Below, one piece after another: positions 3,101-61,729 of a DNA stretch of 64,000 nt (its first letter is position 1; each line of letters begins with the position of its first letter). A program made the translations under genes and the position numbers. The notes below the pieces were generated by a model that was not told the DNA's origin, made no database searches, and worked only from the letters and a program-made list of their open reading frames with translations. This DNA is from Apostichopus japonicus (taxonomy: Eukaryota; Echinodermata; Holothuroidea; Aspidochirotida; Stichopodidae): positions 21,935,917 to 21,999,916 of the forward strand of contig NC_092571.1 in the NCBI RefSeq assembly GCF_037975245.1, given 5' to 3'.

Positions 3101-6100
3101 GGCAGCTGTAAGTATTAGTTAATCCACCTAATATCTCAGTCCATACAGTGGCGCGATGGCTTGGCGCGTTGTACGAGCTGATGATCGAGACTCTCTTTTG
3201 CATCCGTGGTTCGAAGCCCGGGTGATGACGTCTTTTGCCGATCTTTTACAGCAAGTGCCTACACGGGGAGCTGTAAGTATTAGTTAATCCAGCTAATATC
3301 TCAGTCCATACAGTGGCGCGATGGCTTGGCGCGTTGTACGAGCTGATGATCGAGACTCTCTTTTGCATCCGTGGTTCGAAGCCCGGGTGATGACGTCTTT
3401 TGCCGATCTTTTACAGCAAGTGCCTACACGGGGAGCTGTAAGTATTAGTTAATCCACCTAATATCTCAGTCCATACAGTGGCGCGATGGCTTGGCGCGTT
3501 GTACGAGCTGATGATCGAGACTCTCTTTTGCATCCGTGGTTCGAACCCCGGGTGATGACGTCTTTTGCCGATCTTTTACAGCAAGTGCCTTCACTGGCAG
3601 CTGTAAGTATTAGTTAATCCACCTAATATCTCAGTCCATACAGTGGCGCGATGGCTTGGCGCACTCTAAGAGCTGATGATCGAGACTCTCTTTTGCATCC
3701 GTGGTTCGAACCCCGGGTGATGACGTCTTTTGCCGATCTTTTACAGCAAGTGCCTACACTGGCAGCTGTAAGTATTAGTTAATCCACCTAATATCTCAGT
3801 CCATACAGTGGCGCGATGGCTTGGCGCACTGTACGAGCTGATGATCGAGACTCTCTTTTGCATCCGTGGTTCGAACCCCGGGTGATGACGTCTTTTGCCG
3901 ATCTTTTACAGCAAGTGCCTACACTGGCAGCTGTAAGTATTAGTTAATCCACCTAATATCTCAGTCCATACAGTGGCGCGATGGCTTGGCGCGTTGTACG
4001 AGCTGATGATCGAGACTCTCTTTTGCATCCGTGGTTCGAACCCCGGGTGATGACGTCTTTTGCCGATCTTTTACAGCAAGTGCCTACACGGGGAGCTGTA
4101 AGTATTAGTTAATCCACCTAATATCTCAGTCCATACAGTGGCGCGATGGCTTGGCGCGTTGTACGAGCTGATGATCGAGACTCTCTTTTGCATCCGTGGT
4201 TCGAACCACGGGTGATGACGTCTTTTGCCGATCTTTTACAGCAAGTGCCTACACGGGGAGCTGTAAGTATTAGTTAATCCACCTAATATCTCAGTCCATA
4301 CAGTGGCGCGATGGCTTGGCGCGTTGTACGAGCTGATGATCGAGACTCTCTTTTGCATCCGTGGTTCGAACCCCGGGTGATGACGTCTTTTGCCGATCTT
4401 TTACAGCAAGTGCCTACACTGGCAGCTGTAAGTATTAGTTAATCCACCTAATATCTCAGTCCATACAGTGGCGCGATGGCTTGGCGCACTGTACGAGCTG
4501 ATGATCGAGACTCTCTTTTGCATCCGTGGTTCGAACCCCGGGTGATGACGTCTTTTGCCGATCTTTTACAGCAAGTGCCTACACGGGGAGCTGTAAGTAT
4601 TAGTTAATCCACCTAATATCTCAGTCCATACAGTGGCGCGATGGCTTGGCGCACTGTACGAGCTGATGATCGAGACTCTCTTTTGCATCCGTGGTTCGAA
4701 CCCCGGGTGATGACGTCTTTTGCCGATCTTTTACAGCAAGTGCCTACACGGGGAGCTGTAAGTATTAGTTAATCCACCTAATATCTCAGTCCATACAGTG
4801 GCGCGATGGCTTGGCGCACTGTACGAGCTGATGATCGAGACTCTCTTTTGCATCCGTGGTTCGAACCCCGGGTGATGACGTCTTTTGCCGATCTTTTACA
4901 GCAAGTGCCTACACGGGGAGCTGTAAGTATTAGTTAATCCACCTAATATCTCAGTCCATACAGTGGCGCGATGGCTTGGCGCACTGTACGAGCTGATGAT
5001 CGAGACTCTCTTTTGCATCCGTGGTTCGAAGCCCGGGTGATGACGTCTTTTGCCGATCTTTTACAGCAAGTGCCTACACTGGCAGCTGTAAGTATTAGTT
5101 AATCCACCTAATATCTCAGTCCATACAGTGGCGCGATGGCTTGGCGCGTTGTACGAGCTGATGATCGAGACTCTCTTTTGCATCCGTGGTTCGAAGCCCG
5201 GGTGATGACGTCTTTTGCCGATCTTTTACAGCAAGTGCCTTCACGGGGAGCTGTAAGTATTAGTTAATCCACCTAATATCTCAGTCCATACAGTGGCGCG
5301 ATGGCTTGGCGCACTGTACGAGCTGATGATCGAGACTCTCTTTTGCATCCGTGGTTCGAACCCCGGGTGATGACGTCTTTTGCCGATCTTTTACAGCAAG
5401 TGCCTACACTGGCAGCTGTAAGTATTAGTTAATCCACCTAATATCTCAGTCCATACAGTGGCGCGATGGCTTGGCGCACTGTACGAGCTGATGATCGAGA
5501 CTCTCTTTTGCATCCGTGGTTCGAAGCCCGGGTGATGACGTCTTTTGCCGATCTTTTACAGCAAGTGCCTACACGGGGAGCTGTAAGTATTAGTTAATCC
5601 ACCTAATATCTCAGTCCATACAGTGGCGCGATGGCTTGGCGCACTCTACGAGCTGATGATCGAGACTCTCTTTTGCATCCGTGGTTCGAACCCCGGGTGA
5701 TGACGTCTTTTGCCGATCTTTTACAGCAAGTGCCTACACGGGGAGCTGTAAGTATTAGTTAATCCACCTAATATCTCAGTCCATACAGTGGCGCGATGGC
5801 TTGGCGCACTGTACGAGCTGATGATCGAGACTCTCTTTTGCATCGGTGGTTCGAACCCCGGGTGATGACGTCTTTTGCCGATCTTTTACAGCAAGTGCCT
5901 ACACGGGGAGCTGTAAGTATAAGTTAATCCACCTAATATCTCAGTCCATACAGTGGCGCGATGGCTTGGCGCGTTGTACGAGCTGATGATCGAGACTCTC
6001 TTTTGCATCGGTGGTTCGAACCCCGGGTGATGACGTCTTTTGCCGATCTTTTACAGCAAGTGCCTACACGGGGAGCTGTAAGTATTAGTTAATCCACCTA

Positions 6101-9073
6101 ATATCTCAGTCCATACAGTGGCGCGATGGCTTGGCGCGTTGTACGAGCTGATGATCGAGACTCTCTTTTGCATCCGTGGTTCGAACCCCGGGTGATGACG
6201 TCTTTTGCCGATCTTTTACAGCAAGTGCCTACACTGGCAGCTGTAAGTATTAGTTAATCCACCTAATATCTCAGTCCATACAGTGGCGCGATGGCTTGGC
6301 GCGTTGTACGAGCTGATGATCGAAACTCTCTTTTGCATCCGTGGTTCGAACCCCGGGTGATGACGTCTTTTGCCGATCTTTTACAGCAAGTGCCTACACG
6401 GGGAGCTGTAAGTATTAGTTAATCCACCTAATATCTCAGTCCATACAGTGGCGCGATGGCTTGGCGCACTGTACGAGCTGATGATCGAGACTCTCTTTTG
6501 CATCCGTGGTTCGAACCCCGGGTGATGACGTCTTTTGCCGATCTTTTACAGCAAGTGCCTACACTGGCAGCTGTAAGTATTAGTTAATCCACCTAATATC
6601 TCAGTCCATACAGTGGCGCGATGGCTTGGCGCACTGTACGAGCTGATGATCGAGACTCTCTTTTGCATCCGTGGTTCGAACCCCGGGTGATGACGTCTTT
6701 TGCCGATCTTTTACAGCAAGTGCCTACACTGGCAGCTGTAAGTATTAGTTAATCCACCTAATATCTCAGTCCATACAGTGGCGCGATGGCTTGGCGCGTT
6801 GAACGAGCTGATGATCGAGACTCTCTTTTGCATCCGTGGTTCGAACCCAGGGTGATGACGTCTTTTGCCGATCTTTTACAGCAAGTGCCTACACGGGGAG
6901 CTGTAAGTATTAGTTAATCCACCTAATATCTCAGTCCATACAGTGGCGCGATGGCTTGGCGCACTGTACGAGCTGATGATCGAGACTCTCTTTTGCATCC
7001 GTGGTTCGAACCCCGGGTGATGACGTCTTTTGCCGATCTTTTACAGCAAGTGCCTACACTGGCAGCTGTAAGTATTAGTTAATCCACCTAATATCTCAGT
7101 CCATACAGTGGCGCGATGGCTTGGCGCACTGTACGAGCTGATGATCGAGACTCTCTTTTGCATCCGTGGTTCGAACCCCGGGTGATGACGTCTTTTGCCG
7201 ATCTTTTACAGCAAGTGCCTACACGGGGAGCTGTAAGTATTAGTTAATCCACCTAATATCTCAGTCCATAAAGTGGCGCGATGGCTTGGCGCACTGTACG
7301 AGCTGATGATCGAGACTCTCTTTTGCATCCGTGGTTCGAACCCCGGGTGATGACGTCTTTTGCCGATCTTTTACAGCAAGTGCCTACACTGGCAGCTGTA
7401 AGTATTAGTTAATCCACCTAATATCTCAGTCCATACAGTGGCGCGATGGCTTGGCGCACTCTACGAGCTGATGATCGAGACTCTCTTTTGCATCCGTGGT
7501 TCGAACCCCGGGTGATGACGTCTTTTGCCGATCTTTTACAGCAAGTGCCTACACTGGCAGCTGTAAGTATTAGTTAATCCACCTAATATCTCAGTCCATA
7601 CAGTGGCGCGATGGCTTGGCGCACTCTACGAGCTGATGATCGAGACTCTCTTTTGCATCCGTGGTTCGAACCCCGGGTGATGACGTCTTTTGCCGATCTT
7701 TTACAGCAAGTGCCTACACTGGCAGCTGTAAGTATTAGTTAATCCACCTAATATCTCAGTCCATACAGTGGCGCGATGGCTTGGCGCACTCTACGAGCTG
7801 ATGATCGAGACTCTCTTTTGCATCCGTGGTTCGAAGCCCGGGTGATGACGTCTTTTGCCGATCTTTTACAGCAAGTGCCTACACTGGCAGCTGTAAGTAT
7901 TAGTTAATCCACCTAATATCTCAGTCCATACAGTGGCGCGATGGCTTGGCGCACTCTACGAGCTGATGATCGAGACTCTCTTTTGCATCCGTGGTTCGAA
8001 CCCCGGGTGATGACGTCTTTTGCCGATCTTTTACAGCAAGTGCCTACACTGGCAGCTGTAAGTATTAGTTAATCCACCTAATATCTCAGTCCATACAGTG
8101 GCGCGATGGCTTGGCGCACTGTACGAGCTGATGATCGAGACTCTCTTTTGCATCCGTGGTTCGAAGCCCGGGTGATGACGTCTTTTGCCGATCTTTTACA
8201 GCAAGTGCCTACACGGGGAGCTGTAAGTATTAGTTAATCCACCTAATATCTCAGTCCATACAGTGGCGCGATGGCTTGGCGCACTGTACGAGCTGATGAT
8301 CGAGACTCTCTTTTGCATCCGTGGTTCGAACCCCGGGTGATGACGTCTTTTGCCGATCTTTTACAGCAAGTGCCTACACGGGGAGCTGTAAGTATTAGTT
8401 AATCCACCTAATATCTCAGTCCATACAGTGGCGCGATGGCTTGGCGCACTGTACGAGCTGGAGATCGAGACTCTCTTTTGCATCCGTGGTTCGAACCCCG
8501 GGTGATGACGTCTTTTGCCGATCTTTTACAGCAAGTGCCTACACTGGCAGCTGTAAGTATTAGTTAATCCACCTAATATCTCAGTCCATACAGTGGCGCG
8601 ATGGCTTGGCGCACTCTACGAGCTGATGATCGAGACTCTCTTTTGCATCCGTGGTTCGAAGCCCGGGTGATGACGTCTTTTGCCGATCTTTTACAGCAAG
8701 TGCCTACACGGGGAGCTGTAAGTATTAGTTAATCCACCTAATATCTCAGTCCATACAGTGGCGCGATGGCTTGGCGCACTGTACGAGCTGATGATCGAGA
8801 CTCTCTTTTGCATCCGTGGTTCGAACCCCGGGTGATGACGTCTTTTGCCGATCTTTTACAGCAAGTGCCTACACTGGCAGCTGTAAGTATTAGTTAATCC
8901 ACCTAATATCTCAGTCCATACAGTGGCGCGATGGCTTGGCGCACTCTACGAGCTGATGATCGAGACTCTTTTGCATCCGTGGTTCGAACCCCGGGTGATG
9001 ACGTCTTTTGCCGATCTTTTACAGCAAGTGCCTACACGGGGAGCTGTAAGTATTAGTTAATCCACCTAATATC

Positions 9074-9416
9074 TCAGTCCATACAGTGGCGCGATGGCTT
9101 GGCGCGATGGCTTGGCGCACTCTACGAGCTGATGATCGAGACTCTCTTTTGCATCCGTGGTTCGAACCCCGGGTGATGACGTCTTTTGCCGATCTTTTAC
9201 ACGGGGAGCTGTAAGTATTAGTTAATCCACCTAATATCTCAGTCCATACAGTGGCGCGATGGCTTGGCGCGATGGCTTGGCGCACTCTACGAGCTGATGA
9301 TCGAGACTCTCTTTTGCATCCGTGGTTCGAACCCCGGGTGATGACGTCTTTTGCAGATCTTTTACAGCAAGTGCCTACACTGGCAGCTGTAAGTATTAGT
9401 TAATCCACCTAATATC
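9074..9416 (+). repeat. Two adjacent satellite units with a 13-bp duplication
   Basis: Two neighbouring monomers carry the same extra 13-bp copy of the D-arm-like segment GGCGCGATGGCTT (9088-9113 and 9253-9278). The first of them also lacks 13 bp, so CTTTTAC runs directly into ACGGGG at about 9200; the two changes cancel and the unit stays 165 bp. The second is 178 bp. Sharing of the rare insertion by neighbours indicates a recent local duplication by unequal exchange. Confidence 0.85.
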
Positions 9417-11886
9417 TCAGTCCATACAGTGGCGCGATGGCTTGGCGCACTCTACGAGCTGATGATCGAGACTCTCTTTTGCATCCGTGGTTCGAACCCC
9501 GGGTGATGACGTCTTTTGCAGATCTTTTACAGCAAGTGCCTACACGGGGAGCTGTAAGTATTAGTTAATCCACCTAATATCTCAGTCCATACAGTGGCGC
9601 GATGGCTTGGCGCACTGTACGAGCTGATGATCGAGACTCTCTTTTGCATCCGTGGTTCGAACCCCGGGTGATGACGTCTTTTGCCGATCTTTTACAGCAA
9701 GTGCCTACACGGGGAGCTGTAAGTATTAGTTAATCCACCTAATATCTCAGTCCATACAGTGGCGCGATGGCTTGGCGCACTCTACGAGCTGATGATCGAG
9801 ACTCTCTTTTGCATCCGTGGTTCGAACCCCGGGTGATGACGTCTTTTGCCGATCTTTTACAGCAAGTGCCTACACGGGGAGCTGTAAGTATTAGTTAATC
9901 CACCTAATATCTCAGTCCATACAGTGGCGCGATGGCTTGGCGCACTCTACGAGCTGATGATCGAGACTCTCTTTTGCATCCGTGGTTCGAACCCCGGGTG
10001 ATGACGTCTTTTGCCGATCTTTTACAGCAAGTGCCTACACTGGCAGCTGTAAGTATTAGTTAATCCACCTAATATCTCAGTCCATACAGTGGCGCGATGG
10101 CTTGGCGCACTGTACGAGCTGATGATCGAGACTCTCTTTTGCATCCGTGGTTCGAACCCCGGGTGATGACGTCTTTTGCCGATCTTTTACAGCAAGTGCC
10201 TACACGGGGAGCTGTAAGTATTAGTTAATCCACCTAATATCTCAGTCCATACAGTGGCGCGATGGCTTGGCGCACTGTACGAGCTGATGATCGAGACTCT
10301 CTTTTGCATCCGTGGTTCGAACCCCGGGTGATGACGTCTTTTGCCGATCTTTTACAGCAAGTGCCTACACGGGGAGCTGTAAGTATTAGTTAATCCACCT
10401 AATATCTCAGTCCATACAGTGGCGCGATGGCTTGGCGCACTCTACGAGCTGATGATCGAGACTCTCTTTTGCATCCGTGGTTCGAACCCCGGGTGATGAC
10501 GTGTTTTGCCGATCTTTTACAGCAAGTGCCTACACGGGAGCTGTAAGTATTAGTTAATCCACCTAATATCTCAGTCCATACAGTGGCGCGATGGCTTGGC
10601 GCACTGTACGAGCTGATGATCGAGACTCTCTTTTGCATCCGTGGTTCGAACCCCGGGTGATGACGTCTTTTGCCGATCTTTTACAGCAAGTGCCTACACG
10701 GGAGCTGTAAGTATTAGTTAATCCACCTAATATCTCAGTCCATACAGTGGCGCGATGGCTTGGCGCACTGTACGAGCTGATGATCGAGACTCTCTTTTGC
10801 ATCCGTGGTTCGAACCCCGGGTGATGACGTCTTTTGCCGATCTTTTACAGCAAGTGCCTACACGGGGAGCTGTAAGTATTAGTTAATCCACCTAATATCT
10901 CAGTCCATACAGTGGCGCGATGGCTTGGCGCACTCTACGAGCTGATGATCGAGACTCTCTTTTGCATCCGTGGTTCGAACCCCGGGTGATGACGTCTTTT
11001 GCCGATCTTTTACAGCAAGTGCCTACACTGGCAGCTGTAAGTATTAGTTAATCCACCTAATATCTCAGTCCATACAGTGGCGCGATGGCTTGGCGCACTC
11101 TACGAGCTGATGATCGAGACTCTTTTGCATCCGTGGTTCGAACCCCGGGTGATGACGTCTTTTGCCGATCTTTTACAGCAAGTGCCTACACGGGGAGCTG
11201 TAAGTATTAGTTAATCCACCTAATATCTCAGTCCATACAGTGGCGCGATGGCTTGGCGCACTGTACGAGCTGATGATCGAGACTCTCTTTTGCATCCGTG
11301 GTTCGAACCCCGGGTGATGACGTCTTTTGCCGATCTTTTACAGCAAGTGCCTACACTGGCAGCTGTAAGTATTAGTTAATCCACCTAATATCTCAGTCCA
11401 TACAGTGGCGCGATGGCTTGGCGCACTCTACGAGCTGATGATCGAGACTCTCTTTTGCATCCGTGGTTCGAACCCCGGGTGATGACGTCTTTTGCCGATC
11501 TTTTACAGCAAGTGCCTACACTGGCAGCTGTAAGTATTAGTTAATCCACCTAATATCTCAGTCCATACAGTGGCGCGATGGCTTGGCGCACTGTACGAGC
11601 TGATGATCGAGACTCTCTTTTGCATCCGTGGTTCGAACCCCGGGTGATGACGTCTTTTGCCGATCTTTTACAGCAAGTGCCTACACTGGCAGCTGTAAGT
11701 ATTAGTTAATCCACCTAATATCTCAGTCCATACAGTGGCGCGATGGCTTGGCGCACTGTACGAGCTGATGATCGAGACTCTCTTTTGCATCCGTGGTTCG
11801 AACCCCGGGTGATGACGTCTTTTGCCGATCTTTTACAGCAAGTGCCTACACGGGAGCTGTAAGTATTAGTTAATCCACCTAATATC

Positions 11887-14800
11887 TCAGTCCATACAGT
11901 GGCGCGATGGCTTGGCGCACTGTACGAGCTGATGATCGAGACTCTCTTTTGCATCCGTGGTTCGAACCCCGGGTGATGACGTCTTTTGCCGATCTTTTAC
12001 AGCAAGTGCCTACACGGGAGCTGTAAGTATTAGTTAATCCACCTAATATCTCAGTCCATACAGTGGCGCGATGGCTTGGCGCACTGTACGAGCTGATGAT
12101 CGAGACTCTCTTTTGCATCCGTGGTTCGAAGCCCGGGTGATGACGTCTTTTGCCGATCTTTTACAGCAAGTGCCTACACGGGAGCTGTAAGTATTAGTTA
12201 ATCCACCTAATATCTCAGTCCATACAGTGGCGCGATGGCTTGGCGCACTGTACGAGCTGATGATCGAGACTCTCTTTTGCATCCGTGGTTCGAACCCCGG
12301 GTGATGACGTCTTTTGCCGATCTTTTACAGCAAGTGCCTACACGGGGAGCTGTAAGTATTAGTTAATCCACCTAATATCTCAGTCCATACAGTGGCGCGA
12401 TGGCTTGGCGCACTGTACGAGCTGATGATCGAGACTCTCTTTTGCATCCGTGGTTCGAACCCCGGGTGATGACGTCTTTTGCCGATCTTTTACAGCAAGT
12501 GCCTACACTGGCAGCTGTAAGTATTAGTTAATCCACCTAATATCTCAGTCCATACAGTGGCGCGATGGCTTGGCGCACTGTACGAGCTGATGATCGAGAC
12601 TCTCTTTTGCATCCGTGGTTCGAACCCCGGGTGATGACGTCTTTTGCCGATCTTTTACAGCAAGTGCCTACACGGGGAGCTGTAAGTATTAGTTAATCCA
12701 CATAATATCTCAGTCCATACAGTGGCGCGATGGCTTGGCGCACTGTACGAGCTGATGATCGAGACTCTCTTTTGCATCCGTGGTTCGAACCCCGGGTGAT
12801 GACGTCTTTTGCCGATCTTTTACAGCAAGTGCCTACACTGGCAGCTGTAAGTATTAGTTAATCCACCTAATATCTCAGTCCATACAGTGGCGCGATGGCT
12901 TGGCGCACTGTACGAGCTGATGATCGAGACTCTCTTTTGCATCCGTGGTTCGAACCCCGGGTGATGACGTCTTTTGCCTATCTTTTACAGCAAGTGCTTA
13001 CACGGGGAGCTGTAAGTATTAGTTAATCCACCTAATATCTCAGTCCATACAGTGGCGCGATGGCTTGGCGCACTGTACGAGCTGATGATCGAGACTCTCT
13101 TTTGCATCCGTGGTTCGAACCCCGGGTGATGACGTCTTTTGCCGATCTTTTACAGCAAGTGCCTACACGGGCAGCTGTAAGTATTAGTTAATCCACCTAA
13201 TATCTCAGTCCATACAGTGGCGCGATGGCTTGGCGCACTCTACGAGCTGATGATCGAGACTCTCTTTTGCATCCGTGGTTCGAACCCCGGGTGATGACGT
13301 CTTTTGCCGATCTTTTACAGCAAGTGCCTACACGGGAGCTGTAAGTATTAGTTAATCCACCTAATATCTCAGTCCATACAGTGGCGCGATGGCTTGGCGC
13401 ACTCTACGAGCTGATGATCGAGACTCTCTTTTGCATCCGTGGTTCGAACCCCGGGTGATGACGTCTTTTGCCGATCTTTTACAGCAAGTGCCTACACTGG
13501 CAGCTGTAAGTATTAGTTAATCCACCTAATATCTCAGTCCATACAGTGGCGCGATGGCTTGGCGCACTGTACGAGCTGATGATCGAGACTCTCTTTTGCA
13601 TCCGTGGTTCGAACCCCGGGTGATGACGTCTTTTGCCGATCTTTTACAGCAAGTGCCTACACGGGAGCTGTAAGTATTAGTTAATCCACCTAATATCTCA
13701 GTCCATACAGTGGCGCGATGGCTTGGCGCACTGTACGAGCTGATGATCGAGACTCTCTTTTGCATCCGTGGTTCGAACCCCGGGTGATGACGTCTTTTGC
13801 CGATCTTTTACAGCAAGTGCCTACACGGGAGCTGTAAGTATTAGTTAATCCACCTAATATCTCAGTCCATACAGTGGCGCGATGGCTTGGCGCACTGTAC
13901 GAGCTGATGATCGAGACTCTCTTTTGCATCCGTGGTTCGAACCCCGGGTGATGACGTCTTTTGCCGATCTTTTACAGCAAGTGCCTACACGGGGAGCTGT
14001 AAGTATTAGTTAATCCACCTAATATCTCAGTCCATACAGTGGCGCGATGGCTTGGCGCACTGTACGAGCTGATGATCGAGACTCTCTTTTGCATCCGTGG
14101 TTCGAACCCCGGGTGATGACGTCTTTTGCCGATCTTTTACAGCAAGTGCCTACACTGGCAGCTGTAAGTATTAGTTAATCCACCTAATATCTCAGTCCAT
14201 ACAGTGGCGCGATGGCTTGGCGCACTGTACGAGCTGATGATCGAGACTCTCTTTTGCATCCGTGGTTCGAACCCCGGGTGATGACGTCTTTTGCCGATCT
14301 TTTACAGCAAGTGCCTACACGGGGAGCTGTAAGTATTAGTTAATCCACCTAATATCTCAGTCCATACAGTGGCGCGATGGCTTGGCGCACTGTACGAGCT
14401 GATGATCGAGACTCTCTTTTGCATCCGTGGTTCGAACCCCGGGTGATGACGTCTTTTGCCGATCTTTTACAGCAAGTGCCTACACTGGCAGCTGTAAGTA
14501 TTAGTTAATCCACCTAATATCTCAGTCCATACAGTGGCGCGATGGCTTGGCGCACTGTACGAGCTGATGATCGAGACTCTCTTTTGCATCCGTGGTTCGA
14601 ACCCCGGGTGATGACGTCTTTTGCCTATCTTTTACAGCAAGTGCCTACACGGGGAGCTGTAAGTATTAGTTAATCCACCTAATATCTCAGTCCATACAGT
14701 GGCGCGATGGCTTGGCGCACTGTACGAGCTGATGATCGAGACTCTCTTTTGCATCCGTGGTTCGAACCCCGGGTGATGACGTCTTTTGCCGATCTTTTAC

Positions 14801-15180
14801 AGCAAGTGCCTACACGGGCAGCTGTAAGTATTAGTTAATCCACCTAATATCTCAGTCCATACAGTGGCGCGATGGCTTGGCGCACTCTACGAGCTGATGA
14901 TCGAGACTCTCTTTTGCATCCGTGGTTCGAACCCCGGGTGATGACGTCTTTTGCCGATCTTTTACAGCAAGTGCCTACACGGGAGCTGTAAGTATTAGTT
15001 AATCCACCTAATATCTCAGTCCATACAGTGGCGCGATGGCTTGGCGCACTCTACGAGCTGATGATCGAGACTCTCTTTTGCATCCGTGGTTCGAACCCCG
15101 GGTGATGACGTCTTTTGCCGATCTTTTACAGCAAGTGCCTACACTGGCAGCTGTAAGTATTAGTTAATCCACCTAATATC
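11887..15180 (+). repeat. Two copies of a 10-monomer (1,647 bp) higher-order repeat
   Basis: Units 11,887-13,533 and 13,534-15,180 show the same order of variants. From the second unit of each block they run: short CACGGGAGCT, CGGGGAG, CTGGCAG, CGGGGAG, CTGGCAG, a unit with the rare GCCTATC change, a unit with the hybrid CACGGGCAG, then a GCACTC short unit and a GCACTC CTGGCAG unit. Marker offsets are constant at 1,647 bp: hybrid 13,166 and 14,813; short unit 13,331 and 14,978; GCCTATC 12,976 and 14,623. Differences are few (GAAGCCC at about 12,130, CCACATA at about 12,700, GCTTACA at about 12,996), so the block duplication is recent. Confidence 0.88.
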
Positions 15181-18100
15181 TCAGTCCATACAGTGGCGCG
15201 ATGCCTTGGCGCACTGTACGAGCTGATGATCGAGACTCTCTTTTGCATCCGTGGTTCGAACCCCGGGTGATGACGTCTTTTGCCGATCTTTTACAGCAAG
15301 TGCCTACACTGGCAGCTGTAAGTATTAGTTAATCCACCTAATATCTCAGTCCATACAGTGGCGCGATGGCTTGGCGCACTGTACGAGCTGATGATCGAGA
15401 CTCTCTTTTGCATCCGTGGTTCGAACCCCGGGTGATGACGTCTTTTGCCGATCTTTTACAGCAAGTGCCTACACGGGGAGCTGTAAGTATTAGTTAATCC
15501 ACCTAATATCTCAGTCCATACAGTGGCGCGATGGCTTGGCGCACTGTACGAGCTGATGATCGAGACTCTCTTTTGCATCCGTGGTTCGAACCCCGGGTGA
15601 TGACGTCTTTTGCCGATCTTTTACAGCAAGTGCCTACACGGGGAGCTGTAAGTATTAGTTAATCCACCTAATATCTCAGTCCATACAGTGGCGCGATGGC
15701 TTGGCGCACTGTACGAGCTGATGATCGAGACTCTCTTTTGCATCCGTGGTTCGAACCCCGGGTGATGACGTCTTTTGCCGATCTTTTACAGCAAGTGCCT
15801 ACACTGGCAGCTGTAAGTATTAGTTAATCCACCTAATATCTCAGTCCATACAGTGGCGCGATGGCTTGGCGCACTGTACGAGCTGATGATCGAGACTCTC
15901 TTTTGCATCCGTGGTTCGAACCCCGGGTGATGACGTCTTTTGCCGATCTTTTACAGCAAGTGCCTACACGGGGAGCTGTAAGTATTAGTTAATCCACCTA
16001 ATATCTCAGTCCATACAGTGGCGCGATGGCTTGGCGCACTCTACGAGCTGATGATCGAGACTCTCTTTTGCATCCGTGGTTCGAACCCCGGGTGATGACG
16101 TCTTTTGCCGATCTTTTACAGCAAGTGCCTACACTGGCAGCTGTAAGTATTAGTTAATCCACCTAATATCTCAGTCCATACAGTGGCGCGATGGCTTGGC
16201 GCACTCTACGAGCTGATGATCGAGACTCTCTTTTGCATCCGTGGTTCGAACCCCGGGTGATGACGTCTTTTGCCGATCTTTTACAGCAAGTGCCTACACG
16301 GGGAGCTGTAAGTATTAGTTAATCCACCTAATATCTCAGTCCATACAGTGGCGCGATGGCTTGGCGCACTCTACGAGCTGATGATCGAGACTCTCTTTTG
16401 CATCCGTGGTTCGAACCCCGGGTGATGACGTCTTTTGCCGATCTTTTACAGCAAGTGCCTACACTGGCAGCTGTAAGTATTAGTTAATCCACCTAATATC
16501 TCAGTCCATACAGTGGCGCGATGGCTTGGCGCACTGTGCGAGCTGATGATCGAGACTCTCTTTTGCATCCGTGGTTCGAACCCCGGGTGATGACGTCTTT
16601 TGCCGATCTTTTACAGCAAGTGCCTACACGGGGAGCTGTAAGTATTAGTTAATCCACCTAATATCTCAGTCCATACAGTGGCGCGATGGCTTGGCGCACT
16701 GTACGAGCTGATGATCGAGACTCTCTTTTGCATCCGTGGTTCGAACCCCGGGTGATGACGTCTTTTGCCGATCTTTTACAGCAAGTGCCTACACTGGCAG
16801 CTGTAAGTATTAGTTAATCCACCTAATATCTCAGTCCATACAGTGGCGCGATGGCTTGGCGCACTCTACGAGCTGATGATCGAGACTCTCTTTTGCATCC
16901 GTGGTTCGAACCCCGGGTGATGACGTCTTTTGCCGATCTTTTACAGCAAGTGCCTACACGGGGAGCTGTAAGTATTAGTTAATCCACCTAATATCTCAGT
17001 CCATACAGTGGCGCGATGGCTTGGCGCACTCTACGAGCTGATGATCGAGACTCTCTTTTGCATCCGTGGTTCGAACCCCGGGTGATGACGTCTTTTGCCG
17101 ATCTTTTACAGCAAGTGCCTACACGGGGAGCTGTAAGTATTAGTTAATCCACTTAATATCTCAGTCCATACAGTGGCGCGATGGCTTGGCGCACTGTACG
17201 AGCTGATGATCGAGACTCTCTTTTGCATCCGTGGTTCGAACCCCGGGTGATGACGTCTTTTGCCGATCTTTTACAGCAAGTGCCTACACTGGCAGCTGTA
17301 AGTATTAGTTAATCCACCTAATATTTCAGTCCATACAGTGGCGCGATGGCTTGGCGCACTCTACGAGCTGATGATCGAGACTCTCTTTTGCATCCGTGGT
17401 TCGAACCCCGGGTGATGACGTCTTTTGCCGATCTTTTACAGCAAGTGCCTACACTGGCAGCTGTAAGTATTAGTTAATCCACCTAATATCTCAGTCCATA
17501 CAGTGGCGCGATGGCTTGGCGCACTCTACGAGCTGATGATCGAGACTCTCTTTTGCATCCGTGGTTCGAACCCCGGGTGATGACGTCTTTTGCCGATCTT
17601 TTACAGCAAGTGCCTACACGGGGAGCTGCAAGTATTAGTTAATCCACCTAATATCTCAGTCCATACAGTGGCGCGATGGCTTGGCGCACTGTACGAGCTG
17701 ATGATCGAGACTCTCTTTTGCATCCGTGGTTCGAACCCCGGGTGATGACGTCTTTTGCCGATCTTTTACAGCAAGTGCCTACACGGGGAGCTGTAAGTAT
17801 TAGTTAATCCACCTAATATCTCAGTCCATACAGTGGCGCGATGGCTTGGCGCACTCTACGAGCTGATGATCGAGACTCTCTTTTGCATCCGTGGTTCGAA
17901 CCCCGGGTGATGACGTCTTTTGCCGATCTTTTACAGCAAGTGCCTACACTGGCAGCTGTAAGTATTAGTTAATCCACCTAATATCTCAGTCCATACAGTG
18001 GCGCGATGGCTTGGCGCACTGTACGAGCTGATGATCGAGACTCTCTTTTGCATCCGTGGTTCGAACCCCGGGTGATGACGTCTTTTGCCGATCTTTTACA

Positions 18101-19627
18101 GCAAGTGCCTACACGGGGAGCTGTAAGTATTAGTTAATCCACCTAATATCTCAGTCCATACAGTGGCGCGATGGCTTGGCGCACTGTACGAGCTGATGAT
18201 CGAGACTCTCTTTTGCATCCGTGGTTCGAACCCCGGGTGATGACGTCTTTTGCCGATCTTTTACAGCAAGTGCCTACACTGGCAGCTGTAAGTATTAGTT
18301 AATCCACCTAATATCTCAGTCCATACAGTGGCGCGATGGCTTGGCGCACTGTACGAGCTGATGATCGAGACTCTCTTTTGCATCCGTGGTTCGAACCCCG
18401 GGTGATGACGTCTTTTGCCGATCTTTTACAGCAAGTGCCTACACGGGGAGCTGTAAGTATTAGTTAATCCACCTAATATCTCAGTCCATACAGTGGCGCG
18501 ATGGCTTGGCGCACTCTACGAGCTGATGATCGAGACTCTCTTTTGCATCCGTGGTTCGAACCCCGGGTGATGACGTCTTTTGCCGATCTTTTACAGCAAG
18601 TGCCTACACGGGGAGCTGTAAGTATTAGTTAATCCACTTAATATCTCAGTCCATACAGTGGCGCGATGGCTTGGCGCACTGTACGAGCTGATGATCGAGA
18701 CTCTCTTTTGCATCCGTGGTTCGAACCCCGGGTGATGACGTCTTTTGCCGATCTTTTACAGCAAGTGCTTACACTGGCAGCTGTAAGTATTAGTTAATCC
18801 ACCTAATATCTCAGTCCATACAGTGGCGCGATGGCTTGGCGCACTCTACGAGCTGATGATCGAGACTCTCTTTTGCATCCGTGGTTCGAACCCCGGGTGA
18901 TGACGTCTTTTGCCGATCTTTTACAGCAAGTGCCTACACTGGCAGCTGTAAGTATTAGTTAATCCACCTAATATCTCAGTCCATACAGTGGCGCGATGGC
19001 TTGGCGCACTGTACGAGCTGATGATCGAGACTCTCTTTTGCATCCGTGGTTCGAACCCCGGGTGATGACGTCTTTTGCCGATCTTTTACAGCAAGTGCCT
19101 ACACGGGGAGCTGCAAGTATTAGTTAATCCACCTAATATCTCAGTCCATACAGTGGCGCGATGGCTTGGCGCACTGTACGAGCTGATGATCGAGACTCTC
19201 TTTTGCATCCGTGGTTCGAACCCCGGGTGATGACGTCTTTTGCCGATCTTTTACAGCAAGTGCCTACACTGGCAGCTGTAAGTATTAGTTAATCCACCTA
19301 ATATCTCAGTCCATACAGTGGCGCGATGGCTTGGCGCACTCTACGAGCTGATGATCGAGACTCTCTTTTGCATCCGTGGTTCGAACCCCGGGTGATGACG
19401 TCTTTTGCCGATCTTTTACAGCAAGTGCCTACACTGGCAGCTGTAAGTATTAGTTAATCCACCTAATATCTCAGTCCATACAGTGGCGCGATGGCTTGGC
19501 GCACTCTACGAGCTGATGATCGAGACTCTCTTTTGCATCCGTGGTTCGAACCCCGGGTGATGACGTCTTTTGCCGATCTTTTACAGCAAGTGCCTACACG
19601 GGCAGCTTAATCGGCCTAATATCTCAG

Positions 19628-25625: not shown

Positions 25626-25715
25626 TGGCTCTATTTGGTTACGGCTTACACATCTTAGGATTCATATCCTCGAATATCACTCAATGTTGCTGAATGGAGA
25701 ATTCCACCCAGATCG

Positions 25716-26010
25716 ATGAGTTGGTACCCTGAGCTCTCCAATAATCTTAAGCTTAGTCTGCCTTTCTTTCGAGGCCAGTTCCATTCGTCGTCGGTTGAAG
25801 GGTATAGACAAATATTCAAGTCGATGAATCCAGAGGTACGGGCTATGTTTGGTGAAGTCGAAGCTCTCTTGCGGTTGCTCCTCGTCTCCTCCGCCAGTTC
25901 GACGGAAGCCGAGAGATCTTTTAGTGCTCTGAGGCGTTTGAAGACAAGGCTACGGAGCACCATGACTCTACAGAGGCTGAACCATGTGATCGTGTTCCAT
26001 ATTCACCGAG
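25716..26010 (+). pseudogene. hAT transposase C-terminal dimerisation fragment
   Basis: About 98 codons match the C-terminal dimerisation region of hAT transposases (the ZMYM1-like/TTF-type group in animals). The signature is an LLVSSASSTEAERSFSALRR segment at about residues 52-71 of the reading frame, followed by LKTRLRSTM and RLNHVIVFHIHR. In this family the P-x-S-S-x-E-x-E-R-x-F-S helix packs against the catalytic core and mediates oligomerisation. The zinc-finger BED domain and the D-D-E catalytic core are absent upstream, where the sequence is a G/C-rich terminal segment. It is therefore a truncated, non-functional remnant. The frame runs on past the conserved part into CACCCCCC repeat sequence. 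Confidence 0.8.
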
Positions 26011-26150
26011 CAGGGACGTCGTTAGAGGGGGTGGGTGTGTCTCACCCCCCAAGCCATGGTAAAACTGACGCTAGTTGGAAAATTGGAGTGCGACAGTCGG
26101 AATTTCCGACTGTCGCACTCTAGTTTATCTAGGCCTTTTCATTTATCCCT
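26011..26150. repeat. G/C-rich hAT-like end plus a 35-bp near-perfect palindrome
   Basis: CAGGGACGTCGTTAGAGG at about 26,012 looks like a hAT terminus. Further on, 26,086-26,120 is a palindrome with two 17-bp arms (left arm GAGTGCGACAGTCGGAA) around a single T, with no mismatches. It could form a cruciform or a very stable RNA hairpin. No promoter or gene is placed so that the hairpin would serve as a terminator. Confidence 0.8.
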
Positions 26151-46551: not shown

Positions 46552-48101
46552 AGGTCGTGCATATGGCAAGCCCTTTAACATTTACCTCGCAATTAGACTT
46601 AAGTCGAATACATTTCACTTAAGTGGAATACATTCTACTAAAGTGAAATGTTATTCCACTTAAGTAAAATGTATTCCACTTAAGTGGAATTCAATATCCC
46701 TTCAGTAGAATTCCTTTTCTCTTAAGTGGAAATGGACATTTCTATTTCACTTAAGTGGATATGCCTCCCACTTAAGTGGAATTGTATTTCACTTTAGTGG
46801 AAATGCATTCCACTTAAGTGGAATTGTATTTTAAGTGGAATACATTTCCACTTAAGTGGAATACATTTCCACTTAAGCTAAATAGCCCATCTATTTCACT
46901 TAAGTGGAACACAATTCCACTTAAGTGAAATGCATTTCCACTTAAGTGAAATACAATTCCATTTAAGTGGAATGCATTTCCACTTAAGTGGAATTGTATT
47001 CCACTTAAGTGGAATACAATTTCACTTAAGTGGAATAATATCTTTTGCTCGTCAATTTCACTTAAGTGGAATTCTATTCTGCCAAAGTAAAATACAATTC
47101 CACTTAAGTGGAATAGACTAGCCAATCACATTCCACTTAAGTGAAATAGACTATCCAATCACATTTCACTTAAGTGGAATTGTATTCCACTTAAGTGAAA
47201 TAGAAAGGAAATTCCACTTAGGTGGAATTGTATCCACTTAAGTAGAATACAATTCCACTTAAGTGAAATGCATTTCCACTTAAGTGGAATTGTATTCCAC
47301 TTAAGTGGAATACAATTTCACTTAAGTGGAATAATATCTTTTGCTCGTCAATTTCACTTAAGTGGAATTCTATTCTGCCAAAGTAAAATACAATTCCACT
47401 TAAGTGGAAGTGTTGATATGTGGCTTATATATAAATACAATTTAGGGTAATGTTCGGTAATGTTATTTTGGTAATGGTATTCATCTGGTACCAGGTCAGG
47501 TATGTACGTACTCACCTTGCACGGATGTTAAGTGCTAGCTGGATCCCGATGGACAGCCGATATTCATTGTGCACATATCGACACCACGTATTGCGGCAAG
47601 TTGTTTATAATGGCGCGCAAAGGCATGGGCAAAGTTTGGCGTTGAATGTACTAGCCAATCACATTCCACTTAAGTGGAATAGACTAGCCAATCACATTCC
47701 ACTTAAGTGAAATAGACTATCCAATCACATTTCACTTAAGTGGAATTGTATTCCACTTAAGTGAAATAGAAAGGAAATTCCACTTAAGTGGAATTGTATC
47801 CACTTAAGTAGAACACAATTCCACTTAAGTGAAATGCATTTCCACTTAAGTGAAATACAATCCCCTTAAGTGAAATAGATTAAGCTTAAGTAAGATGCAG
47901 TGACAAGTTGATGAATTCAGCTTAAGTAAAATACAATTAAGCTTAAGTGGAATGGTATTCCACTTAAGTGAAATAGAATTCCACGTAAGTTAAAAAGTAT
48001 TCTGCTTAAGTGATATTGAATTCCACTTAAGTGAAATGTATTCGACTTAAGTCGAATTGCGAGGTAAATGTTAAAACGGCTTGCCATACGTGCACTGACC
48101 T
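46552..48101. mobile_element. Foldback-like element of palindromic CTTAAG subrepeats
   Basis: The outer ends are inverted: AGGTCGTGCATATGGCAAGCC-type sequence from 46,552 is mirrored by GGCTTGCCATACGTGCACTGACCT ending at 48,101. Next inside, both ends carry AACATTTACCTCGCAATT and CGACTTAAGTCG. Nearly all the interior is tandem 15-18 bp units in which TTCCACTTAAGTGGAA, a perfect 16-bp palindrome, or close variants recur dozens of times. About 47,410-47,655 is non-repetitive. The layout (inverted ends, short tandem subrepeats, small unique core) matches foldback transposons, including the sea-urchin TU family whose outer domains are tandem short repeats. No transposase is encoded, and no target duplication was found. 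Confidence 0.75.
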
Positions 48102-52243: not shown

Positions 52244-53465
52244 TTACGGTGGTTAGTGTTATGTACTTAGAAAGTAAGACAAACTCTCTGTCTAGAATTC
52301 AACTCCCAGAGGATGTATTGTTTTGGTATTTCTTTTCCTCATTTTGCAGTTAAAATATTAGAAAAGCCTATCATTTCTCAATTAACAGTTACTGTGGCAA
52401 AGTTGTTATGTTGTATAATTTTGCATATTTATTATTGTTTTGTACAATGAAATTGTCAATAAACTGAAAAAAATGAGACATACTCCTTGTCTTGAATTCA
52501 AACACCAGAGGATGCATTTGATTTTCTATTTATTTGCCTTCTAATGTTGTGAAGATTAAATATTAGAAACGAGTATTCAATCTCAACAGTTCTCGTGGCG
52601 CAGTTGGTAGTGCTCTGGACTGGAGAGACAGACAAACTCCATGTCTCCGGTTCGAACCCCAGACAGCATTTTATATTTTTGCTCTTTTACTGACTCCATT
52701 CTGGACTTTGAAGTTTAAATATTAGAAACGAGCATTAATTCTCAACAGTTCTAGTGGCGCAGTTGGTAGTGCTCTGGACTGGAGAGACAGACAAACTCCA
52801 TGTCTCCGGTTCGAACCCCAGACAGAGCATTTTATATTTTGCTCTTTTACTGATTTCATTCTGGACTATGAAGTTTAAATATTAGAAACGAGCATTAATT
52901 CTCAACAGTTCTAGTGGCGCAGTTGGTAGTGCTCTGGACTGGAGAGACAGACAAACTCCATGTCTCCGGTTCGAACCCCAGACAGAGCATTTTATATTTT
53001 TGCTCTTTTACTTATTCCATTCTGGACTTTGAAGTTTAAATATTAGAAACGAGCATTAATTCTCAACAGTTCTAGTGGCGCAGTTGGTAGTGCTCTGGAC
53101 TGGAGAGACAAACTCAATGTCTCCGGTTCGAATCCCAGACAGAGCATTTTATATTTTTGCTCTTTTACTTATTCCATTCTGGACTTTGAAGTTTAAATAT
53201 TAGAAACGAGCATTAATTCTCAACAGTTCTAGTGGCGCAGTTGGTAGTGCTCTGGACTGGAGAGACAGACAAACTCCATGTCTCCGGTTCGAACCCCAGA
53301 CAGAGCATTTTATATTTTTGCTCTTTTACTGATTCTATTCTGGACTCTGAAGTTTAAATATTAGAAACGAGCATTAATTCTCAACAGTTCTAGTGGCGCA
53401 GTTGGTAGTGCTCTGGACTGGAGAGACAGACAAACTCCATGTCTCCGGTTCGATTCCCAGACAGA
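52244..53465 (+). repeat. About 160-bp tandem array of tRNA-like units (six intact, two decayed)
   Basis: Six units share an A box TGGCGCAGTTGG starting at 52,596, 52,755, 52,915, 53,076, 53,233 and 53,393, and a B box GGTTCGAACCC about 55 bp later (GGTTCGATTCC in the last). The D arm pairs as GCGC/GTGC around AGTTGGTAG, as in tRNA-Trp or tRNA-Arg genes. The T arm does not pair normally (GTCT-CC-GG against CC-CC-AGAC), so they are unlikely to be functional tRNAs. The rest of the unit is an AT-rich spacer (GAAGTTTAAATATTAGAAAC). Two older, strongly diverged units precede the array at 52,250-52,560. Unit 4 has a short deletion in the variable-arm region. Confidence 0.85.
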
Positions 53466-53562
53466 GCATCATGTCTGCGGTTCATGTCCAGACAGAGCCT
53501 TTTACTTTTCTACCCTCTGGAGGGAGTGGAAGTATAAATATAAGAAACAAAGTTTCTCCAGA

Positions 53563-57599: not shown

Positions 57600-60575
57600 A
57601 GGACAGGATAGCCATAATCGTACCCGAGGTCAGAGTCGAAGAGTCAAATAGGGAGGGATTTCTAAAGGAGAGGAACTTTTTAAGTACTGAGAATTGTGGA
57701 GACGGAGTGGTTTCTATTGTTTGGGTAGGGAGTGGTTGTGGTTTCTATTGTTTGGTAACAATATAATCTGTATATATAAGTATACTAGACCCATTTAGGG
57801 AAGGATTTTTTTAATGGAATGAGACTTTAAGTAGTAACAATTGTGAATACAGAAAGGGTTTGGTTTTTGGGTAGTGAGTTGTTGCGACTTTGTATTTCAG
57901 GCGGAGGTCTTCAATCAAAGGGTCGTTCTCGAGGTTGTTTTTGTATAACTTGTGTTGAATTCTTCAAGTCGGGTGAAAGTAGATTTTGTGTTTCCTGCAC
58001 GGAGAACGTACAAAGTAGCAATATAGGTAGGGATTTTGAGTGCGAGTCGATAAGCTGTGGTGTGGATTCTGTTTAAAATTTGTTTATTGGGATTAGAGAT
58101 GGTAAGCAGGGAGATTCTCCCGTAACTGAGAATCGGTTTTACTTTGGATTTATAGATTTGGATAATTGTTTTCGGAGGGAAGTTATATTTGTGTGAGAGG
58201 ATTTGAATGGATTTAAGTTGGAACCAGCAGCGTCCTGCAGTTCTGTTACACAGTAGATTAAACGATAATTTGCTATCGAAAGTGGTACCAAGGAAGGTTG
58301 CATTAAGAGTAGCAGTGATTGAGGTGTTGAAAAGATTAACTTTGGAAATATGGTTATGGTATTTTGAGTTTATTATGGAGAAATTGGCTAGGTTAGATTT
58401 TGAGGGATATATTTTTGTTCTCCACATCGAGCACCAATTTTCGAGATGTGTAATTGCTCTTTTAATATTTAGTTCCATCATATAGACATTTTTACTGGTG
58501 CTCCAAATGGCTATGTCGTCAGTGTACTGACTATAGTTGCATTCAGATAGAGGGGGGATGTTCAAATCATTAACAAATAGGGTGCAGGGGAGGGGGCTGA
58601 GAACAGCGCCCTGTGGAGTACCTGCACCAAGTGGAATAGGTTTTGATTGTTGGTTTTTGTAGCATATTTTGGCATTGCGCTCACTAAAGAAAGAGGAAAG
58701 AAGTCTGGTGTAATTGGAGGGGAGATTAAAGTTAAGTAGTTAAATTCTTATGCCGTTGTGCCAAGTTTTGTCGAACGCCTTTTCGGCATCAAGGAAGAGG
58801 GCAGTGGTATCATGTCTTTTTATGAAGCTGATGCGAATTTCTTTGGAAAGGTGGAAAGTTTGGTTTATTGTAGATTTGTGTGCGCGGAATTAGCCTGATT
58901 GATACGGGCAAAGTGATTAATTTGCTCAAGGTGGTTTATGGTGCGGTAATCTATAATTCTTTCGAAAATCTTACCTAAGGCTGGTAGGAGACTAATTGGT
59001 TGATAGTTTTGAATTTTGGTGTGTCTTTACTTAGTTTCGGTATTAAAATCATTTTGGCGGATTTCCACAGGGTTGGGAAATGACCCAGTCTAAGGAGTTT
59101 GTCAAATAATGGGAAAATATGAGAGTTAATGAATATCGGAGGCCGACGGAGGGGAATCTTTTAGCATTAGGTCATTTATGTTGTCAAGACCAGGGGAGGA
59201 GGCATTTTTGCATATTCAGTGGCACTATACCAATCATTTATATCTATTTCTTTGGGTAGAGGGATGTTTTTGTTGAGAAATCCTTAGAAGTTGGGGATAA
59301 AGCTGCATTACAGATAATTGTACGGTCTATTTTGTGTTGGAATCTGTTATCGTATGGAGGGCCATCTAAGATATTGAATATAGTTTTCAAGTATGATTCA
59401 CTAAGCTTTATTTGGTCTTAATTTTTGTGATGAGGTTACCTACTTTATATCTAAGGCATTCGTCTGTATTACCTGTGTTTGGGTTGTAATGGGTTTATGA
59501 TACTTTTTTAATTTTTCCAAAAGTGTTTTGGGTTTTTGTCATTAATGATTGAATCGCATTTGTTTTGGATTCGGTTTTGGTCGACCGCCGATATTTGTCT
59601 ATTTATTTGTTTTTTAGGTTGTTTAATTTAGGTTTTTAGAGTTGGATCTGGGGAGATCATATAGGTTCTATGTAGGCGACGTCTGAGTTATTTAGTGTAA
59701 GAATATTCCTATTTAGTTTTGGATTTCTGTTTTGTTTTTAATGGGCAGTGTTGTTTGAAGGTATTAAAGATATGTTGGGCAATGCTGTCACAATATATGC
59801 CGATGTAATTTAGCTTGTTGTTGTGGTAATTGGCAATAGTGTTGTTTGTTATGATCCCTTTTTAAATGATGTCCAGTCTGTTTTATTGTAATTATACGTT
59901 ATTTCGTTATTTTGGATGCGACTGAGGTTTATGTCTAGCTCAAAAAGGAGTGGAAAATGGTCACTGATTAGGTCATCTTCTAGGATTTGAATCGAATGAG
60001 TTTTAGTTGCAAGGTGGTTTGAGGTTATGGCGTAGTCAAGTAGTTCAGTATTATTGTTTATTGGGTTTATCCTAGTTTTGGTATTTTGGTTAATTATTGT
60101 TAAGTTGTGTTTATCACATATTTCTAAGAGGGATATGCCTTTTTCAGATATTTTGGTGCTACCAAAAATGATGTGGTGGGCATTTAAATCTCCTAGTAGT
60201 ATTGTATTTTTATTAGAACTTTTTTTGATTGTGGATATGGGCTCCTTTGGGGACTATAATAGCTAATAATGTGGAGAGGTTTATTGTCTCTTTCGAGTAC
60301 AATTTCAATTGTTTGGGTTTGTTTGGGAGGAGGGTGGCTTTGAGGTTGTTTTTTTCAGCAATAAGTACTCCTCCCATAGAGTGAGAGATATCGTGTCTGA
60401 AACTTTGGTAACCAGGGATGCTAAGGTGGGAATTTTTATTTAGTTTAGTTTTGTTTAACGAAATGATATCCGGGGAGTGGTTGGCGAATATAGTAAGTAG
60501 GAGGCTTAATTTTGGAAGGATACTGTTGATGTTTAGGTGGAGGAACTTGACCGAAGGAGGGAGTGTGCTTGTCAT
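57600..60575 (-). pseudogene. LINE ORF2 (AP endonuclease and reverse transcriptase)
   Basis: The first 115 or so codons (60,575-60,213) match an APE-type endonuclease: KFLHLNINSI, PDIISLNKTKLN and an MGGVLIAEKNNL block. The usual catalytic Glu of the QET motif is Lys here (LNKTKL). Reverse transcriptase follows: the linker and fingers (about 59,650-58,856), palm motif A as LFLDAEKAFDKTWHNG (about 58,800-58,755), GTPQGAVLSPL (about 58,613) and the catalytic YTDD (SQYTDDIAIWS, about 58,527). A 216-codon open frame covers 58,565-57,915. Stops and frameshifts elsewhere, and the Glu-to-Lys change, mean it cannot be active. The 3' limit is approximate. Confidence 0.85.
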
Positions 60576-61729
60576 GTAGGTGATTGAGGAGGGCTAAATA
60601 TTGAAAGATGGTGGAGACGTTCCATAATTACAGTTTCTGGGATATTTAAGTTTAGGTGTTTTAGTGCTAACACGGCGGCGTAACTGGCAAGGTCGTCAGA
60701 TTTAATATTAATGTTGGCTTTTTGGAAAGTGTATTGTACTAATTCAATTACAAAGGTTGCGATATTAAGTTTTTTTTTCAGTGACGATTTTATTTGTTAT
60801 TTCAATTTTAGGGGTAAAATTGGTTACATTCGCGTAGGTTCTTTGTTCTTGTTGTTTGTTATTATTTTCAGTTTTAGCTTCTTTAAATTTTGGGCATCCT
60901 TTGTAAAGGGCGACATGAGTCCCTGAGCAATTGGCACATTTTGGGTTTTCTTTTGGTTTGGGACAGTCTTTAACTCTGTGGTTTTCGCCACATCTGAGAC
61001 ATCTGGTTTGATTGTTGCAAGTATGGTGGGTGTGTCCAAAGAGTTGACATTTGAAACATTGAGTGATTTGGGGGGTTTGTGGTATTCTTCTGTTTTGTGT
61101 TTAGAGTATCCTAAGTAGAAACCTTGTTTGATTAGGGATTGTTGAGGCTCTTGTTCTTCAAACGTCATTTTTACTTTCCAAGTTGTATTGTTTGTGGCAT
61201 GACTAATGAGTGTTTTAGTTTGTATTGGGGTGTATTCTTGGTCTTTGAGTTCTTGTTCAATATCTTTGATTTGAATTTCAGGGTTTATGCCACAGGCTAC
61301 TACGGAGAAGTTTCCTTGTCATACTTTTTGGGGGATTCTTGGTTTGGGGTTGCCTAGTTTAGTCTTTTGAGTCCATGGTTTCAGGAGGATATTTGCAGAT
61401 TTAGGGTCATGGGGGTGATTAGGATGTCGTTACTACGAAGACGGTTTATATTTGAGATCATGGCATTTGGTTTTTCTTCATTGATTAGTTTAGCAAGTGT
61501 TTATTGGGTTTTTTGATAGTTCTGGTAAGATTCCTGATACAATGATTGTTTGAGCGAACTTTTTGGTGGTTGGTTTGGAGTTAGGAGATGGGTTTATTTC
61601 AACGTAGATTGGACGTTGTCTTTTTCTGCTATTTTTGTACAGGGATCCAGTCATTAATGTCTATGTCAAAATCAGAGAGGTTTAGGTTTTCGACTAGGGG
61701 GGCGGTTATAGGTGGGTAAGGGGTTGTCA
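60572..61729 (-). pseudogene. LINE ORF1 (gag-like, three zinc knuckles)
   Basis: ORF1 starts with MTTPYPPITAP and carries a DWIPVQK motif typical of Jockey ORF1 proteins, followed at once by an in-frame stop. Between about 61,063 and 60,905 three CCHC-type zinc knuckles can be read: C-x2-C-x4-H-x4-C, C-x2-C-x3-H-x4-C and C-x2-C-x3-H-x6-C. In this family the knuckles bind element RNA in the ribonucleoprotein. The distal part runs to a TGA that overlaps the ORF2 start. A frameshift at an A-run (about 60,770) and several stops make it inactive. Confidence 0.8.

Follow-up and report, generated by a model that had tools for sequence, protein, structure and literature searches.

A foldback element with arms of operator-like palindromes and IS3EU-like ends in the genome of Apostichopus japonicus

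Structure of the element

The window (the whole stretch of 64,000 nucleotides that was analyzed) is part of contig C11 of the host assembly, which comprises 671.6 Mb in 35 contigs. The first-pass annotation, made from the sequence alone, had proposed a foldback element built from a repeated palindrome at positions 46552–48101. A feature is present there, its true ends lying slightly inside this span, and its parts are as follows (TSD, target-site duplication; TIR, terminal inverted repeat).

46556–46561, no strand: left TSD, CGTGCA, read directly; single copy at four empty sites
46562–48088, no strand: complete non-autonomous foldback element, 1527 bp, TATGG..CCATA, from TIR alignment, TSD and genome copies
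46562–46629, plus strand: left TIR, 68 bp, with the CGACTTAAGTCG unit in altered form inside, from alignment with the right end
46593–47409, no strand: left palindrome array, 34 units, from the unit table
47097–47290, plus strand: 194-bp stretch within the left array that recurs with 98% identity at 47663–47856, from the repeat family
47410–47663, no strand: 254-bp centre without palindrome units, between the arrays
47664–48056, no strand: right palindrome array, 16 units, from the unit table
48020–48088, minus strand: right TIR, 69 bp, from alignment; terminal pattern with 0 mismatches at 48064–48088
48089–48094, no strand: right TSD, CGTGCA, in the flank of the element

Fifty 16-mers with no more than five mismatches to TTCCACTTAAGTGGAA were found inside the span 46552–48101, and 14 in the rest of the 64-kb window, all of the latter with at least four mismatches. 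Likewise, 44 of the 51 CTTAAG occurrences in the window fall within the element. It also contains 41 perfect palindromes with a length of 10 bp or more; 300 dinucleotide shuffles yielded a mean of 2.1 such palindromes and a maximum of 7. The median for 27 other window stretches of the same length was 2 and the second highest count was 8; one stretch contained 68, likely because of a TA run. These counts bear out a foldback element with a repeated palindrome at the place where it had been proposed. The exact 16-bp form, which the annotation had taken to be repeated throughout, is present in only 11 of the 50 units, and the arrays account for ca. 80% of the feature, separated by the 254-bp centre, rather than for almost the whole 1.55 kb. 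The TIRs are identical in 66 of 69 aligned columns, start with TATGGCAAGCC and contain the CGACTTAAGTCG layer.

Units of the left array are mostly spaced by 20–21 bp, with spacings of 17, 27, 29, 33, 36 and 42 bp also occurring. The repeated 194-bp segment is a rearrangement of the array within the window copy. An Rfam search of window positions 19600–64000 at gathering thresholds returned no matches.

Copies, target-site duplications and empty sites

A pattern of 29 terminal bases, with up to three mismatches allowed, matched the host genome at 552 places (278 forward and 274 reverse), the reversed control giving none on either strand. The palindrome-pair and TIR patterns had no matches in a viral contig collection, nor had the palindrome-pair pattern in a separate genome contig collection; the copies compared below all come from the host genome. 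TSDs were surveyed in 20 regions around paired, perfectly matching ends, chosen among the termini matches listed. Seventeen of the 23 end pairs were bounded by perfect 6-bp duplications and three by duplications with one mismatch. The remaining three lacked a TSD: an L039 pair and an L058 pair each involved an inner end from a nested arrangement, and the third, L049, is a damaged copy of the window group. When copies with the window's flanks were collapsed, 18 distinct insertions were obtained, 15 with perfect 6-bp TSDs and 3 with one mismatch. In a comparison of 400-bp flanks, which did not include L045, L046, L049 or the flanks that face each other in two neighbouring L039 elements, an insertion site was common to the window and L044 only; the two flanks of L055 are alike over 74 bp. 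The TSDs include GGGACG, CGCTCG, CGTCCG and CCAGCG, which suggests a preference for GC-rich, CG-containing targets. Independent copies are 98.5–99.1% identical in a group of five and 95.8–98.0% identical in a group of three, suggesting recent spread.

The insertion site of the window copy lies inside a dispersed repeat. A query of 490 bases made by joining the two flanks (240 and 250 bases, junction at 240) returned 41 rows, 40 of which span the junction without an insert (40 of 734 candidate places were scored, the 41st row being a side piece of a counted place). Four empty places were read and contain ...GGTCGTGCACTGACC... with a single CGTGCA; these empty sites are other copies of the dispersed repeat and not the allelic site. 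The window's flanks recur together with the element in L002–L008 and L044–L046, as would be expected if the locus were a local inversion or a satellite block and not a mobile element. However, 17 other distinct insertions have TSDs of their own and empty sites exist, which refutes this alternative; we give it practically no credence. The common flanks instead imply that the window insertion happened once and was then multiplied with its surroundings by larger duplications. The annotation had named two outcomes that would speak against a mobile element, namely the absence of a second copy with the same ends and an outer-end similarity due to a simple local inversion. With 552 termini, TSDs and empty sites, neither occurred, and the genome-wide search confirms that the feature in the window is a mobile foldback element.

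A transposase-bearing relative and the affinities of the element

Positions 5792413–5813831 of contig C16 are occupied by an element of 21,419 bp, both ends of which were found, with CGAACC as TSD on both sides. Its end on the transposase-exon side matches the right end of the window element in all of the terminal 25 bp. There are 23 palindrome units at this side and 20 at the opposite end; the centres of the first ones lie at +40, +60 and +81, positions also seen in the foldback copy L052. One strand contains, in this order, the 25-base terminus, the 23-unit array, a predicted first exon, an exon with a helix-turn-helix-like (HTH-like) stretch and a DDE domain; the exons were predicted from open frames, and ca. 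8 kb of the 21.4 kb lie outside the part read. The transposase gene gives the best match in the genome to the Pfam domain rva_4 (PF24764, E 4e-74), which we take to be the integrase core of IS3EU type; as a probable mark of IS3EU the domain is supported by the ends and the TSD. The HTH_7 profile scores 22.7 bits on the C16 exon, just below the Pfam cut-off of 23.8, and neither the exon 1 peptide nor the ORF in the foldback core matched any Pfam family above its curated cut-off. At least 143 rva_4 matches are present in the host genome (150 of 224 candidates were scored), and none in 14 controls; a second copy on C1 shares 97.6% identity with the C16 copy across 3.5 kb surrounding the catalytic domain. 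As a separate observation, 59 of the 143 listed rva_4 matches, many of them broken, lie on contig C17. A search for element ends up to 1.5 kb away from 20 transposase loci brought up none that belonged to the foldback family and none that was convincing; the C16 arms lie beyond that range. The search for an autonomous partner with the same termini, suggested at the outset, thus produced a transposase-bearing relative with matching termini, but not the closest transposase source of the foldback.

IS3EU elements are described as having TA..TA ends and, usually, 6-bp TSDs (PMC10045372), and fungal IS3EU families as having TIRs longer than 30 bp and TAYGG..CCRTA ends (PMC12730594). The window element ends in TATGG..CCATA, has TIRs of 68 and 69 bp and belongs to a family with 6-bp TSDs, in the 18 insertions above as well as in the C16 element. 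Its long inverted repeats of subrepeats around a small middle are those of a foldback element. It encodes no transposase; the rva_4 integrase core is encoded by the element with matching ends and arrays. The likeness to IS3EU/GingerRoot as described in Repbase and in the accounts cited (PMC10045372, PMC12730594) extends from the ends, TIR length and TSD to the integrase-core DDE domain and the HTH-like exon (below Pfam's cut-off) of the 21.4-kb relative. Unlike IS3EU/GingerRoot, the elements studied here have ca. 20 palindromic 18-bp units per end and a foldback plan, and the transposase-bearing one contains a convergent ORF with a HECT domain. A literature search found no link between IS3EU and foldback elements, the two terms meeting only in unrelated places. 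The window element is a new, well-delimited foldback of IS3EU-like type with operator-like palindrome arrays as its arms, and the host genome also contains a relative that bears a transposase gene.

The annotation had likened the feature to the sea-urchin TU elements, which have 8-bp TSDs and 15-bp subrepeats in their foldback arms. The foldback plan and the presence of arm subrepeats are indeed alike, but the 6-bp TSDs of 18 distinct insertions and the 21-bp units speak against the comparison. P-type elements have TSDs of 7–8 bp, as opposed to 6 bp here, and a Pfam search of three C16 exon peptides at E up to 1 detected no THAP domain, only rva_4 and sub-threshold matches; membership in the P/Galileo group was rejected on both counts. 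As a model for the mode of working, Galileo, a P-superfamily foldback of Drosophila, is nevertheless the nearest, having long TIRs and internal repeats with extra transposase-binding sites (PMC3688188). It differs in its THAP-domain transposase and in its three reported sites, which the relevant section of that paper does not describe as palindromic (PMC3688188). The Mutator-type foldbacks Tetris and Tm1 are similar in their long TIRs, tandem subrepeats and variable middle, and Tetris is non-autonomous (PMC4079207). Tetris, as described there, has TSDs of 8–10 bp and TIR-220 repeats, compared with 6 bp and 21-bp palindromic units here, and the TSD length speaks against a Mutator-type foldback.

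Many foldback copies have a centre of ca. 650 bp with a TATA-like stretch and a 74-aa ORF, which is interrupted by a stop in some, for example L052. The ORF has at least 117 matches in the genome. It is 38% identical (E 2.4e-7) to the predicted exon 1 of the C16 element, which precedes the DDE match by 3.2 kb; the foldback therefore appears to have arisen by deletion from a related element. The other 116 ORF matches are all more than 50 kb away from every listed rva_4 match (143), both numbers being lower bounds, and an intact form of the related element was not found in the host genome among the matches listed. This distance, and the 62% difference between the foldback exon 1 and that of C16, count against the overall explanation offered below and leave the C16 enzyme as at most a candidate mover of the subfamily. 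The centre of the window copy (47410–47663), compared by eye side by side with the core of sister copies, looks like a shortened form of it without the 74-aa ORF; none of the 117 listed genome matches to the ORF falls in the window copy.

Composite copies (L014, L015, L026, L027, L029 and L032) contain an additional TATGGCAAGCC-like terminus where a palindrome array ends on its inner side, preceded by CGGTCG in all but L032, and the array of L026 is of the C16 type; they seem to be elements inserted beside or into each other's arrays. At L049:1327–6431, a copy of the window group is interrupted by sequence with an open frame of 866 aa that reads like a non-LTR retrotransposon protein.

The second gene of the C16 element is located as follows.

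L080:2919–4007 (C16:5803918–5805003), strand opposite to the transposase gene: HECT-domain ORF, convergent to the transposase

This ORF of 362 aa matches the C-terminal part of the HECT profile with E 1.1e-11 and has 48 matching stretches in the genome. When all listed rva_4 and HECT rows were merged into loci, 22 of 82 rva_4 loci had a HECT ORF within 15 kb, convergent in 21 cases, and 22 of 37 HECT loci had an rva_4 neighbour; 1000 random shifts of the HECT loci gave a mean of 0.5 and a maximum of 4 of 82. Among the 26 best rva_4 rows, 16 had a HECT ORF, always convergent. No association of IS3EU with HECT was found in the literature search, and Tet_JBP, a cargo of some fungal IS3EU, was detected only on C6, with none in the C16 element. 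We tentatively suggest, at slightly less than even chances, that a large IS3EU group here consists of two-gene systems with a DDE transposase and a convergent, ubiquitin-ligase-like HECT gene; that in at least one lineage arrays of ca. 20 symmetric operators at each end serve both to assemble the transposition complex and to control the adjacent transposase promoter; and that the window element, which has only the operators, parasitises such a system. If the HECT association is general, a eukaryotic cut-and-paste family would carry cargo resembling a ubiquitin ligase. In the 21.4-kb element, a 161-bp satellite of ca. 18 units with matches of 96–98% separates the transposase gene from the HECT gene (L079:1–1133, L080:4094–5901).

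Constraint on the palindrome unit and its possible role

The unit conforms to an 18-bp motif, ATT-N3-CTTAAG-N3-AAT. A strictly kept CTTAAG core had been noted at first; the core is indeed kept, but the conserved part is wider and includes the outer ATT and AAT. In 821 units from 19 elements (TTAA was required for a unit to be called), the C/G beside TTAA and the outer TT/AA are kept at 98–99%, and positions ±5 and ±6 at 67–81%. In the C16 arms, 41 of the 43 units are perfect at all 12 fixed positions, and differences from the commonest base of the arm number 2 of 516 at fixed and 100 of 258 at variable positions; pooling the arms with one spurious unit included (centre 159, right arm) gives 6 of 528 and 102 of 264. 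The contrast is weaker in the window copy, with 41 of 648 fixed and 73 of 324 variable positions differing.

Nine independent insertions contain distinct changes at 21 of 468 fixed and 29 of 234 variable positions (p 2.6e-4). In ten copies of one dead insertion the corresponding counts are 23 of 432 and 11 of 216 (p 1.0). Pairwise changes amount to 48 of 3192 fixed and 19 of 1596 variable positions in the copies of the dead insertion and to 24 of 3528 and 45 of 1764 in the independent insertions; since pairs share branches, only the counts of distinct events carry weight. In both groups most distinct changes occur only once; units with gaps or strong divergence were excluded, and units were picked partly by the positions later called fixed. 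The simplest reading of a contrast that is present in independent insertions and absent in dead duplicates is selection while the element can move, and it suggests that the constraint acts during transposition.

It may be asked whether the palindromes of a genuine IS3EU-like foldback could be a homogenised by-product of slippage or unequal exchange, with nothing bound beyond the first unit or two. The 21-bp tandem periodicity and the 194-bp segment duplicated at 98% show that the arrays do expand and rearrange. Homogenisation, however, should affect all positions alike, whereas positions ±4 to ±6 vary freely and ±1–3 and ±7–9 hardly at all in two diverged subfamilies, and the contrast between fixed and variable positions is missing in duplicates of the dead insertion. 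We therefore regard this explanation as unlikely.

A protein-binding role had been proposed for the palindrome, with a half-site likened to the NKX2-type homeodomain motif. The constraint at fixed positions fits a putative binding site and agrees with the spirit of that proposal; the binder is read here as the transposase and not as a homeodomain protein. If a host homeodomain factor similar to NKX2 bound the units and had been recruited to aid expression or targeting, one would expect the NKX2 core, CACTT/AAGTG, to be kept. It is present on at least one side in 45 of 54 window units and in 35 of 41 units of L052, and the double T..A form at −6/+6 is rare (12 observed, 75 expected), a skew that could also reflect one inherited variant. 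But the half-site falls partly in the variable part of the unit: only 19 of 43 C16 units have CACTT/AAGTG, the other 24 lacking it on either side, and CCACTTAA/TTAAGTGG is kept in 4 of 43. Moreover, the outer ATT/AAT, which lies outside the NKX2 core, is almost invariant. With its core lost from so many units of the C16 arms, the NKX2 proposal has little in its favour and we consider it very improbable. A literature search did not find three longer forms of the palindrome CACTTAAGTG; the 10-letter CACTTAAGTG does occur, for example in work on a bacterial megatransposon.

The transposase is the most obvious binder of a symmetric, constrained site that is repeated at either end of the element and next to the transposase gene. 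That the units may be sites of the transposase itself is also supported by analogy with the TIR repeats of Galileo, as far as these are described (PMC3688188). We thus consider it quite likely that the window element is a non-autonomous foldback-type IS3EU-like DNA transposon whose 18-bp units are sites for a transposase, presumably a dimer. Its nature as a mobile element is secure, and the support for the binding mechanism is indirect. In the mechanism that we envisage, each ATT-N3-CTTAAG-N3-AAT unit would be a symmetric site for a transposase dimer, probably contacted through the HTH-like exon, and the ca. 20 sites per end, mostly two helical turns apart, would gather a multimer able to locate both ends and bring them together; cleavage at the outer TATGG by the catalytic domain and insertion with a 6-bp stagger would follow. 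Spacings of 27, 29, 33 and 36 bp break helical phasing and count against this scheme. Foldback copies would have lost the gene body and kept the arrays, which should make them good competitors for the transposase. As the left array of the C16 element stands directly before the predicted first transposase exon, expression of the transposase could be regulated through these sites as well. We infer promoter control, like dimer binding and the pairing of ends, from the arrangement of sites and genes.

An IS3EU-like lineage would thereby join the foldback elements, of which Galileo of the P superfamily is one known example. A palindrome constrained by position and common to a transposase-carrying element offers a testable account of why foldback arms consist of subrepeats, and dozens of near-identical sites with exact ends are suited to the study of multi-site transposase assembly.

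Several other features of the window and the assembly were noted. At positions 1–19607 a 165-bp unit is repeated 119 times in tandem; the copies are 98% alike and include a stretch that resembles a tRNA (GGTTCGAACCCCGGG), although ARAGORN, run with the bacterial code, reported no tRNA in positions 1–2000. A 161-bp unit repeated 5.8 times at 52550–53469, perhaps a tandem SINE, also has a tRNA-like stretch, and ARAGORN reported no tRNA in this repeat either. The ORF at 25659–26123 presumably resembles the C-terminal end of a hAT transposase, judging by its motif. Positions 57600–61600 have a GC skew of 0.35–0.47, and the ORFs there, judged by eye, resemble a non-LTR retrotransposon's reverse transcriptase and endonuclease. 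Contig C35, probably the mitochondrial genome, contains COX1 with 11 TGA codons, and pieces of COX1 are found on C29.
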